Below are positions 40,425 through 46,443 of a DNA stretch of 64,000 nt, in pieces. The translations under genes were made by a program, and so were the position numbers. The stretch covers positions 692,001 through 756,000 of the forward strand of contig NZ_LR134378.1 of the NCBI RefSeq assembly GCF_900637555.1, given 5' to 3'. The DNA is from Lautropia mirabilis. Its GTDB lineage: Bacteria > Pseudomonadota > Gammaproteobacteria > Burkholderiales > Burkholderiaceae_E. A model generated the notes under the pieces. The model was given only the letters and a program-made list of their open reading frames with translations, was not told the DNA's origin and did not search any database. How positions within the stretch are numbered: the stretch's first letter is position 1; each line of letters starts with the position of its first letter.

Positions 40425-43142
<2,718 letters not shown>

Positions 43143-44990
43143 GGCAGAAGATCGGACGTGAAGGGGATGAACAGGTAGCGCGTCGCGCCGGCCGAGGATG
43201 GCACGGTGTGCGAGGTTGGGGTGTCGATATTGTGCCGCAGGGGGCCAAGCCTGACGGCGCGGGGCTGCATGTGGTGGCGTGCTCGCGTGTGTCTGCGGGT
43301 GTGGCGATGAGACGACGACCAGGTTTCCGCGGGCTGTCGCCTCAATACGGGGTGGGGTTGATGGCCCGCATCGGAGTTTCCACGTCGAGATCAGGCGCTT
43401 TCATGAAGTGGTTTGAAAGAATGCACCGTAACCAATTGATATATAAGGGCATCGATGTTTATACACAAAAACTGTGGATAACTCTGTGAGAAAAGTGGGG
43501 CAATCGCCCCCAAACCCGCATGGCGCCTAGGAAAGGGGTTCTTTGCCCAGAAATACACCAAAGAAAAAGGTCTTTTGAATCAATGACTTGAAGAAAAGGT
43601 TTCTCGATTTGCACAACACCCATCGGTTGTGGCAGCACGATCGTCGTTCTGTGCATAACCACGAAAAAGCGTGCTTCTCAGGTTAGGGAGCACTCGCCTA
43701 CGCGCCAAGGCTCGACTCTTCTACTGCTATCGAAGTCTGAAAGCCGATTGGTTACAGGCGGTGGATGCGTGGCGACGAACGGCGCCAGGGAAGAAGGGAT
43801 GCATGCGCGTGCACATCCGTGAATGGGGGTGATGGCTGGCGGCCTGCGTGCAACAGTGACGCATTCCGAATGGTGTGGGTGGAGGGCATCCGGTTAGGGG
43901 GCTGGATGGTGAGTTCAGATGTGGGGGGGGACGATGCGTCGTGTAACCGGGGTTATCGGCATGCCGTTCATCGGTACTCGGGGGCGTCCCTGCGCAGCGG
44001 GTATCTCTCTGGGATTTCCGTGACTGAACAGGAATCGTTCTCTGCCTGTTGACAAGTCCAGCGACTTGGCGGCGCCTGAAGCCGTACTTAAGGGATGCAA
44101 AGGTGACAGGCCGGTTACCGTTCATCGGTCGGGAGATGTGCGCTTTTTCACAGAATCAGTGGATAAGTATGTGAACTCGGTCCGGTCAAGCCAGGAAGAT
44201 CCAGTGTTCATGCGGGTCTTGAGGGTGTTGCCTAAATTTTGACCTGGGGAGATGCCATGCCCGACAGACGGTCGGTTGGCGTGAGTTTTTGTTACGAAAA
44301 CAGCGTGAGAAAGGCCCGAAGTTGTGCACAAAAACAGTGGATAACTCTGTGGGATCTCCATTCGCAACCGGCGCAAGTCCACTGTTGATGCGGGTTTTCC
44401 GGGATTGCCGTTTTTTTGGACGGGCTTGGCAACTGTTCCACCCAGGGCAAGAGTGAAGCCGACCAGTGGTCGACAGCCGTCGCTTGAACGGCAGACAGGG
44501 GACCCGTCAACGGTCGCCGGACGTGGGTTATTTCACAGAATCAGTGGATAAGTGTGTGGGAAGGGGAGGGGTAAGCCCGCCGAGGCCTGTATCCATGCGG
44601 GATGGGCAGGGGCTGCCTGAATTTTGGGCATATGGATTTCCCACGTTCATGGCCCGAAAGACGCGTTGTCTGGATGACACAGGAAGGCCTGGTTGCGCAG
44701 ATCAGGGGAGTTTTCTGTGGATAACTTTGTGAGGACAAATCCCGGCGGACTTGTCAAATCGAGGGCCTGTCATCTTTTCCAGCGATGCGGCAAGCCAACA
44801 ATGGATATATTTCCTTATAAAACAATGAGATGGGTGTGCTTTGGCGGCTGGGGGCTGACAAGCCCCTGGTAACTGCCCAGGGTGTCTTTCTGTGGATAAC
44901 TTTATGGATAAGTGAAAAAGACTCCGCGCTGCAAAGACTTCCGTCAGGCATGAACGCCCGATGAGAAAGGCGGGCCCACTCGCTGGGGGC
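43143..44990. other. Non-coding DnaA-box array, candidate replication origin or DnaA-binding locus
   Basis: Eight 9-mers match TTATCCACA or one-mismatch variants, all reading TGTGGATAA-like on the plus strand: 43473, 43650, 44158, 44336, 44543, 44716, 44891 and 44903 (first bases). Three are perfect (43473, 44716, 44891). Most neighbours are 173-207 bp apart, inside degenerate direct repeats; in three units ATGCGGG begins exactly 52 bases after the box start. An AT-rich stretch (43425-43470) could be an unwinding element. No gene is supported. DnaA binding is inferred from the boxes; origin activity is only one of the possible roles. Confidence 0.7.
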
Positions 44991-45015
44991 AAAAAAAGGG
45001 CGGCTGTCGCCGCCC
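44991..45015 (-). terminator. Rho-independent terminator of gluP
   Basis: GGGCGG (44998-45003) pairs with CCGCCC (45010-45015); on the minus strand seven T follow. It also closes the DnaA-box region. Confidence 0.85.
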
Positions 45016-45096
45016 GATGCCTGGTTCAGATCAGACCAGGCTTGCCATGCTGTCCTGAGCCGCTGGAAGGCCCTTGCAAGGCGCTTTCCATCAACT

Positions 45097-45125
45097 GGCG
45101 GGGATTCCTGCAAGGAATCCCCGCC
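45097..45125 (-). terminator. Perfect hairpin immediately after gluP
   Basis: Twelve-base arms (45097-45108 and 45114-45125) around TGCAA, 35 bp past the stop, with no T-run. May stabilise the mRNA end or act with the terminator at 44991. Confidence 0.6.
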
Positions 45126-45159
45126 AACCGGTCAGGACGGTCTTCTCAGCCGCGTTTCA

Positions 45160-46443
45160 TCAGTCCTTCACACGGTGACCGAACAGGCCGAAGTAGACGA
45201 TGTAGCAGTAGCAAGCCGCCGCCACCCAGAACGAGGGCAGCAGGCCCACCGTGTCAGCCACGACGCCCTGGAACAGCGGCACGATGGCGCCCCCGACGAT
45301 GGCCGTGGCCAGCATGCCCGAGGCCTGGCTGGTGTGCCGCCCCAGGCCACGCGTGGCCAGCGAGAAGATGGTCGGGAACATGATGGAGTTGAAGAAGCCG
45401 CAGGCCAGCAGGCAGTACATGGCCACGTGCCCGCCCTGCGCGATGGCCAGCGAGATCAGCAGCACGTTCATCATGGCGTTGAACGACAGGTAGATCCCCG
45501 GCCGGATGATGTTGAGCAGGTAGCTGCCCAGGAAGCGGCCCACCATTGCGCCGCCCCAGTAGTAGGTCAGGTAATGGGCGGCCGTGGCTTCCTTCAGGCC
45601 AGCCACTTCCGGCAGACCCATCACGCTCACCAGCAGGCTGCCGATGGCCACTTCGGCACCCACGTAACAGAAGATGCCCAGGGTACCCAGCTTCAGGTGG
45701 CGATACTGCCAGGCGCCGGTGCGCTCGTCATGCGCATGGGCCGAGACCTCCTGCGCGATCTTCTCTGCGGCCGGCAGCCGGATGAAGAACACGGTGATGG
45801 CCAGCAGGATCAGGATGCCCGCCAGAATCAGGTACGGCTCCTGCACGGACGCCGCTTGCCCCGCCTGGTACTTGGCCAGGTCTGCCTCACTCATCTGCGA
45901 CAGCCTTTCCGGGGACATGATCTCGGTGCTGAGAATGAAGAGGGCGCCGATGGAGGGTGCCACGGTGGTGCCCAGCGAGTTGAAGGCCTGCACCAGCGTC
46001 AGGGTGCGCGCTTCCTTGCCCGGTGCGCTCAGCAGCGTCACGTAGGGGTTGCCGGAGACCTGCAGCAGCGTCACGCCGCTGGCCAGAATGAAGAGGGCCC
46101 CCAGAAAGATGGGATAGGACTTGGAGCCTGCTGCCGGATAGAACAGCAGGCAGCCCGTCGCGGCGATCAGAAAGCCGCCGATCACCCCGTTCTTGTAGCC
46201 CAGGCGCGAGATGAACTTGCCGAAGGGAATGGAGGTGATGGCGTAGGCCGTGAAGAAGCAGAACTGAACCAGCAACGCCTGCGCGTAGTTCAGCGAGAAG
46301 ACTTCCTTCAGGTGGGGCACCAGGATGTCGTTCATGCAGGTGATGAAACCCATCATGAAGAACAGACTGGTGAGGACGGTGAGGGCCTGGTTACTGTTCT
46401 GATGCGTGCCTGCTGGTGGCGCCGCAGTGTGAATGGTTGCCAT
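45160..46443 (-). CDS. gluP: Sugar:proton symporter of the FucP/GluP family
   Basis: Major facilitator importer of glucose, galactose or fucose. The N-terminus LTSLFFMMGFITCMNDILVP then HLKEVF is the family signature; later ASGVTLLQVSGNPYVTLL and the C-terminal ATAIVGGAIVPLFQGVVAD fit too. Twelve hydrophobic segments in 427 residues. It lies 88 bp downstream of glk on the same strand, so glucose is the likely substrate. Confidence 0.92.
   Translation of the reverse strand: MATIHTAAPPAGTHQNSNQALTVLTSLFFMMGFITCMNDILVPHLKEVFSLNYAQALLVQFCFFTAYAITSIPFGKFISRLGYKNGVIGGFLIAATGCLLFYPAAGSKSYPIFLGALFILASGVTLLQVSGNPYVTLLSAPGKEARTLTLVQAFNSLGTTVAPSIGALFILSTEIMSPERLSQMSEADLAKYQAGQAASVQEPYLILAGILILLAITVFFIRLPAAEKIAQEVSAHAHDERTGAWQYRHLKLGTLGIFCYVGAEVAIGSLLVSVMGLPEVAGLKEATAAHYLTYYWGGAMVGRFLGSYLLNIIRPGIYLSFNAMMNVLLISLAIAQGGHVAMYCLLACGFFNSIMFPTIFSLATRGLGRHTSQASGMLATAIVGGAIVPLFQGVVADTVGLLPSFWVAAACYCYIVYFGLFGHRVKD

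Follow-up and report, generated by a model that had tools for sequence, protein, structure and literature searches.

What is a dense array of DnaA boxes doing in a 2-kb intergenic stretch of the Lautropia mirabilis chromosome, with the replication-restart gene priA (minus strand) on its left and a gene for a gluP-type sugar transporter (minus strand) on its right? Such an array could start replication, hold DnaA, reactivate it or control a neighbouring gene. The window analysed here is the whole 64-kb stretch (bases 692,001-756,000) of a 3.17-Mb chromosome that forms a single contig. An initial annotation of its letters had read the array either as an origin or as a DnaA-binding locus of the datA or DARS sort, grown by tandem duplication. 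In bacteria oriC usually adjoins dnaA/dnaN.

The DnaA-reactivating sequences (DARS), which recharge ADP-DnaA to ATP-DnaA and raise initiation, have so far been studied in Escherichia coli and its close kin. Their cores are defined by three boxes with the same spacing in both sites, box I being opposite to boxes II and III (PMC5742627). In E. coli, DnaA-ADP bound to the head-to-head boxes I and II releases ADP, as described in PMC8682772, and DARS2 is activated by IHF bound at a fixed distance and on a fixed face of the helix (PMC8682772, PMC4245941). Strong transcription through DARS is reported to be detrimental to it (PMC5010248).

Results

The DnaA-box array and its surroundings

The eight DnaA-box 9-mers of the initial annotation are where it placed them, all in one orientation, and its spacings between them are correct as numbers. 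ATGCGGG does begin 52 bases past three of the boxes, and CACA(A/G)AA does precede four. The reading of the latter motif, and of the S-T-N-T-R-T-G extension that follows most boxes, had to be revised: both are present but are really parts of further DnaA boxes, I and III. Likewise the single orientation holds for the eight, but opposite-facing boxes also exist, a perfect TTATACACA at 43459 and another at 44144. The 508-bp gap had been counted as about three units; this did not stand, the relatives having 317 to 538 bp there and, in that interval, no box (at most one mismatch) besides box I of the next unit.

The window contains 11 copies of TGTGGATAA with at most one mismatch, 4.56 being expected from shuffled sequence, and nine of the 11 fall inside 43459-44911 (1.45 kb), for which the chance is about 3e-15 in an interval picked post hoc. 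Perfect matches to TTWTNCACA show little excess in the genome as a whole (32, vs 24 for the backwards pattern); six of the 32 are in the array and four near dnaA. When 32 boxes were placed at random, never more than three fell within 1.5 kb (20,000 trials). The DnaA-box array is thereby confirmed as real.

The start of priA lies about 317 bp from the left core. Its product has 905 amino acids; the family match breaks after residue 460 and the alignments to relatives break around residues 160-220 and 718-830, so PriA seems to contain extra stretches. On the other side a terminator-like hairpin with a T-run separates the transporter gene from the array (Table 1), one of six terminator-like sites found in the stretch where 1.9 were expected. 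Judged from the sequence, the array thus lies in an intergenic stretch behind such a hairpin, and a DARS is expected in a little-transcribed place. The alpha subunit of IHF is encoded in the same genome.

Two other readings of the repeats were tried and rejected. Folding of 19 middle units as a structured RNA gave -0.55 kcal/mol, three pairs and no compensatory changes, and a search of the whole window with Rfam at gathering thresholds returned tRNA only. The 2-kb interval was also compared by blastn with 72,556 plasmid records in search of a plasmid-borne relative, and nothing matched.

Table 1 Features of the array and its neighbours (window coordinates; offsets counted from box II)
Feature	Position	Strand	Details
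priA, replication-restart helicase	40425..43142	-	NF004067, 779.5 bits, cut-off 763
IHF consensus, inverted, 44 bp left of box II	43429..43441	-	0 mismatches
Left (priA-proximal) DARS-type core	43459..43493	+	box I TTATACACA 43459-43467, box II 43473-43481, box III 43485-43493; 1 mismatch over three boxes
IHF consensus AATCAATGACTTG, +105	43578..43590	+	0 mismatches; one of two perfect IHF sites in 64 kb
Distal DnaA box TTATGCACA, box II orientation, +177	43650..43658	-	
20-mer GTTAGGGAGCACTCGCCTAC 3' of distal box, partial dyad symmetry	43682..43701	+	well conserved in the eight left elements of the genus
Middle unit 1: core 44144-44178 and accessory region (ATGCGG +52, TTGCC +70)	44144..44252	+	no IHF match; accessory z 4.5, register 0
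Middle unit 2: core 44322-44356 and accessory region	44322..44430	+	no IHF match; accessory z 2.9, best register -1
Middle unit 3: core 44529-44563 and accessory region	44529..44637	+	no IHF match; accessory z 4.5, register 0
Right half-element, lacking box I: double boxes at 44716-44736 and 44891-44899/44903-44911 with an AT-rich stretch between them	44716..44911	+	
Intrinsic-terminator-like hairpin and T-run, 3' of the transporter gene	44998..45015	-	7 G-C pairs
gluP-type MFS sugar transporter gene, right bound of the array	45160..46443	-	TIGR01272, 331.3 bits, cut-off 202.55

Geometry of the core

The main unit is a module of three boxes in which box I faces the other two (box I >, 5 bp, < box II, 3 bp, < box III; 9-5-9-3-9). 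Both strands being read, its approximate form is TTNTNCACA - 5 bp - NGTGGATAA - 3 bp - TGTGNNNNN. A scan limited to 5 mismatches over the 27 bases found four such cores in the window (1, 4, 4 and 5 mismatches) and none in 320,020 bp sampled elsewhere in the same genome; the same scan found two to seven cores in each of seven other members of the genus. In all four window cores box I is opposite to boxes II and III, and the spacing of 5 and 3 bp is identical to that of DARS1 (L157:1108) and DARS2 (L155:1136) of E. coli MG1655. An IHF site of the DARS2 type, at a set distance from the core, accompanies the left element only.

In the middle units of the window the last base of box II is mismatched (TTATCCACT) and box III, with 2-3 mismatches, is weak, for which reason these units may bind DnaA poorly. 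Most middle units carry imperfect boxes, TTATCCACC/T, facing in several of them TTCTGCACA, which together make a fair dyad.

The array across the genus

The array interval was matched in seven of the eight other genomes of the genus, the eighth being an assembly of about 720 contigs, and in none of 32 further genomes. The order rep-priA-array-gluP-glk is kept where the contigs permit it to be read, with hemE and the atp genes beyond in most; one genome (G008) has a second gluP-like gene after glk. Comparison of the interval in related genomes, proposed in the initial annotation as a check of the repeat number, thus gave an array that recurs in the genus with two to seven cores per genome.

Its plan consists of a left element (core and distal box at +177), two to five middle cores, usually spaced 150-220 bp apart (a wider gap occurs in G008, 331 bp, and in G004, 731 bp), and a right half-element. 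The latter has no box I and consists of two boxes at a distance of 175-176 bp, with a second box or box-like 9-mer after each. An IHF site with at most one mismatch is present at +105 in all eight left elements, and an inverted one at -44/-45 in seven of the eight; outside the genus the inverted site was seen in one of 20 elements, at -43. The right elements have an IHF-like site at +104/+105 in six of nine copies, the window's own copy being without it, and all 28 middle units lack an IHF match at +105. The 28 middle units and nine right elements compared here and below were hand-picked from box matches.

A few further observations were made on these elements. A LexA-like motif, CTGT-N8-ACAG, stands at +51/+52 of the right half-element (44767-44782 in the window); it is perfect in three of the nine copies and has one mismatch in two more, the window's own included. 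In G001 a second array lies 3' of priA (L137, 11540-12213) and the left element is doubled. Pairs of TTATCCACA in one orientation, 187-188 bp apart, occur elsewhere in three genomes (G002:C2:1489551/1489738, G007:C61:66860/67048 and G008:C10:185183/185371).

All five middle units of G006 find their best match in the unit of the same rank in G007. The mean identity of units is 0.495 within a genome vs 0.486 between genomes. Growth by tandem duplication, as put forward in the initial annotation, is therefore likely but not recent: the units are no more alike within than between genomes, on which ground recent tandem duplication or gene conversion was rejected, and since middle units pair by position between species, the duplication predates these species.

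Accessory sequence beside the core

A matrix was built from positions +22 to +94 past box II of 48 elements outside the genus, a stretch that holds no DnaA-box position of the core, and its z-scores were computed against the 64-kb window, also when units of other genomes and the E. coli sites were scored. On the left elements of the genus this outside matrix scored best at the exact register in all eight (z 4.4-5.3). Among the middle units 22 of 28 were best at register 0, three more at -1 and three failed, while the nine right elements gave z values of 0.6-1.8 and none was best at register 0. This result identifies most middle units as copies of the element that stop short of the IHF site, rather than as stray boxes. 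Three middle units (G001b_357, G004_1864 and G003_801) carry an alternative accessory sequence, CTTAATTA at about +45, and represent a subtype that the outside matrix does not match.

A second matrix was made from 24 of the 28 middle units, the four that aligned poorly being left out. E. coli DARS1 was best at register 0 with this middle-unit matrix (19 of 30,076 E. coli windows scored as high) and also with the outside matrix, which for the two E. coli sites was used in a version that included the box III tail, absent from the version applied to the genus. For DARS2 the middle-unit matrix gave a weaker signal, with 362 of 30,076 windows as high and register 0 the best locally, and the outside matrix peaked one base off, where it was higher than for DARS1. 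A CATGCGG...TTGCC stretch seen 5' of the E. coli DARS1 core was set aside by eye, its distance to the core being different, and the scoring used the accessory region on the 3' side.

The element upstream of priA outside the genus

Loci of priA were taken as the best 80 of 591 candidates by similarity to the PriA of the window, a ranking because of which the sample leans to Betaproteobacteria; many are metagenome assemblies. A core was found upstream of priA in 20 of these best 80 loci when both strands were scanned, in Beta- and Gammaproteobacteria that include Noviherbaspirillum, Gallionellaceae, Dyella, Luteibacter and Rhodanobacter. The 80 loci were then surveyed for further parts of the element together with seven genomes of the genus (the own one included and G003 left out, its contig being cut), only the strand opposite priA being scanned within 1.5 kb, and some loci offering little upstream sequence. 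Under these thresholds 27 of the 87 loci have a core on the strand opposite priA. A distal DnaA box in box II orientation (at most one mismatch) lies at +176 to +202 in all 27 (20/20 outside the genus), and an IHF consensus on the same strand (at most one mismatch) at +104 to +109 in 21 (14/20 outside the genus); neither feature had been used in picking the 27 loci.

The N-terminus of priA could be located in 58 of the 80 loci, and the 57 of them with 700 bp or more of upstream sequence served, on both strands, as a control of the box spacing. Twelve of these 57 upstream regions have the spacer pair (5,3) on the strand opposite priA and none has it on the other; none of the other 116 spacer pairs exceeded four loci on either strand.

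In wider samples the strict three-box pattern was found in 167 of 399 genomes of the order (four of the genus among them) and the reversed pattern in none. Class-wide, a strict pattern of a box II/III pair with IHF at the same offset was found in 102 of 369 genomes (the own one included) and the reversed control in none. A strict pattern based on the unit dyad occurred in one of 65 genomes of the family outside the genus. Reading of 30 loci from the order showed priA within 1.5 kb in six (three of the genus), and of 30 loci from the class nine adjoin priA (the own one included), one adjoins uvrB and 20 have none of the eight genes sought. The gene priA is a common neighbour of these sites, not the sole one.

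Among the eight order loci with named flanking frames four have xseA, the gene for the large subunit of exonuclease VII, beside them; in L165, L166, L169 and L175, which represent other families of that order, it has DARS-type cores within 1.5 kb. Core clusters exist outside the genus, since L165 has three cores and L166 and L169 two each. In a class genome (L209) a box II/III pair and an IHF site are found upstream of uvrB, oriented to that gene as DARS1 is in E. coli. A core lies 3' of priA in L144 (G012), which belongs to another genus of the family.

Position relative to the origin

The genome has one strong match to DnaA, at 653.7 kb and about 81 kb from the array, and a second match at 1.32 Mb with 23.8 bits; the initial annotation was right that dnaA is not nearby. 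The cumulative GC skew computed over 184 contiguous kb has a broad minimum, lowest at about 660 kb beside dnaA. Between 612 and 676 kb the skew stays weak and mixed, then it is positive through the array (735.5-736.9 kb) and beyond, except in one 4-kb bin near 780 kb. Of twenty 10-kb samples most have negative skew on the left side and positive skew on the right, with a flip back near 2.2-2.3 Mb; the exceptions were 1.65 Mb (negative) and 1.01 and 2.61 Mb (near zero). Beside dnaA the interval 660001-680000 (G000:C1) combines low G+C (0.54-0.60) with flat skew and is perhaps an island near the origin.

The array lies 42-94 kb from dnaA in all five genomes that have both on one contig (G006 has a second strong DnaA match on another contig), so it has not recently moved off an origin. 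DnaA boxes, IHF sites and AT-rich stretches do co-occur here as in an origin; with the skew minimum by dnaA about 80 kb off, positive skew on both sides of the array and a distance of this order in all five genomes, we find the suggestion that it is a replication origin, main or auxiliary, hardly credible. The annotation had itself doubted an origin on the ground that the minus-strand atp operon would meet a fork leaving the array head-on. This argument carries little weight, because by skew the whole window belongs to one replichore and atp is head-on to the fork from the dnaA region anyway.

Discussion

The locus is probably a cluster of DARS-type modules, and we read it best as an old priA-linked DARS-type element that was multiplied in this genus, with reactivation of DnaA as the function that we infer from its sequence. 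The expectation of a DnaA-box locus of the titration or reactivation sort built from related units was thus borne out; datA and DARS had been named together, and of that pair the reactivation class is retained, as the three-box geometry selects DARS. On the E. coli model, DnaA-ADP would bind boxes I and II in head-to-head fashion, a partner occupying box III, and would release its ADP, after which apo-DnaA would leave and rebind ATP. By its IHF site at +105 the left element would be DARS2-like, and bending by IHF would bring the distal box to the core. The middle units would have to be of the DARS1 type, since none of the 28 has an IHF match there, and these IHF-less cores would act like DARS1. 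The hairpin at 45015-44998 would shield the array from transcription of the transporter gene. The copies, lying close to oriC, would be doubled early in each round and provide a strong, dosage-dependent supply of ATP-DnaA; an occupied array would also hold DnaA. Many copies near oriC are no obvious optimum, because in E. coli the relocation of DARS1 very close to oriC raised the origin concentration, with a fitness cost suspected by the authors; cells with an extra DARS2 near oriC were like wild type according to the same source (PMC5010248).

Titration remains the main rival. The array would then only hold DnaA near the origin, like the Bacillus subtilis clusters or datA in its titration role, and would exchange no nucleotide. 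This would agree with the array being the densest cluster of perfect boxes in the genome, situated near oriC, and the concentration of E. coli boxes near oriC is likewise read as titration in PMC12371093. A fixed head-to-head pair, a fixed IHF offset and an accessory sequence are not required for titration, yet all of these recur across the class, and we consider titration unlikely as the whole explanation. It is improbable, too, that the boxes form a DnaA-controlled promoter region that mainly couples transcription of priA to the state of DnaA, even though the element is found upstream of priA in one orientation in many genera. The distance from the core to the priA start, approximate because the starts were extrapolated from alignment to the PriA of the window, runs from about 9 to 583 bp (883 bp for the farther copy in G001), whereas the spacing of core, IHF site and distal box varies little. 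Cores of a similar kind are also found beside xseA and uvrB, and a different genus of the family has one 3' of priA; a search for sigma-70-like promoters at 43100-45200 found none, which weighs little in itself. That the boxes are sites of a dimeric regulator and resemble DnaA boxes by chance is very improbable: the dyad of most middle units would suit such a protein in itself, but the left unit has perfect DnaA boxes and shares its accessory sequence with the middle units, and the geometry is identical to that of known DnaA sites.

Beyond the reading as a DARS-type cluster, we put forward a broader proposal that is tentative and somewhat more doubtful than not. The composite of DARS core, IHF site at +104 to +109 and DnaA box at +176 to +202 may be an ancestral cell-cycle switch of Beta- and Gammaproteobacteria that sits upstream of priA; DARS1 and DARS2 of E. 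coli would then be displaced or divergent forms of it. In this genus the composite may have grown into a chain, with cores mostly 150-220 bp apart and every core acting as distal box for the one beside it. Such a chain would be a cooperative reactivator of several modules close to oriC, and the half-element at its end may have the opposite effect, in the manner of datA.

Among the open-licence papers searched we found none that describes a DARS linked to priA or an array of DARS sites. According to one source the DARS2 core is restricted to gamma-proteobacterial relatives of E. coli (PMC4245941); a later review mentions DARS-like sequences in many proteobacteria (PMC10380432), and single elements may therefore have been noticed before. 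What we would call new is the array and the composite signature. A rigid signature of core, IHF site and distal box by priA in two large groups would make DARS-type sites findable by sequence alone. The natural amplification series, from one core to several, offers a test of how copy number and closeness to oriC set the timing of initiation, and bears on whether regeneration of ATP-DnaA or titration dominates outside the enterobacteria. The neighbours of these sites, uvrB and mutH in E. coli and priA and xseA for the array and its relatives, are all genes of DNA repair or restart, a pattern that calls for explanation.

Comparison with known systems

In four stretches fetched from MG1655 the same scan found exactly two cores, DARS1 between bioD and uvrB (TTATCCACT-5-TGTGGATAA-3-TGTGTATTA) and DARS2 upstream of mutH (TTATTCACC-5-TGTGGATAG-3-TGTGAAGAA). 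The double boxes listed for the DnaA ChIP-seq peaks at both sites in PMC11317965, including its Table 1, are their box II/III pairs spaced by 3 bp.

DARS2 shares with the array cores the order and spacing I-5-II-3-III. Its IHF matches, each with one mismatch, are at +79 (minus) and +95 (plus) from box II, the latter about one helical turn away from the +105 of the left element, and its neighbour is mutH where that of the left element is priA. The perfect boxes beyond its core are further off or in another orientation, unlike those of the array. The activity of DARS2 needs Fis sites (FBS2-3) according to PMC4245941, whereas the left element is likened to it by core and IHF site alone. DARS1 has no match to the IHF consensus near its core, as is the case for the middle units; it is present in a single copy and has ACGCGG/TTGGC where the middle units have ATGCGG/TTGCC.

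The defining activity of datA is hydrolysis of DnaA-ATP on groups of boxes bound by IHF. Like the array, datA has an IHF site together with DnaA boxes at a distance from oriC (PMC4585315), but the MG1655 stretch fetched for datA gave no head-to-head core in the same scan, and the right half-element is the only part of the array that could resemble it. The DnaA-box clusters of B. subtilis likewise lie outside oriC and influence initiation; DARS loci and IHF are described as absent from that organism in PMC13220808, the source for both statements, whereas the array keeps a set spacing.
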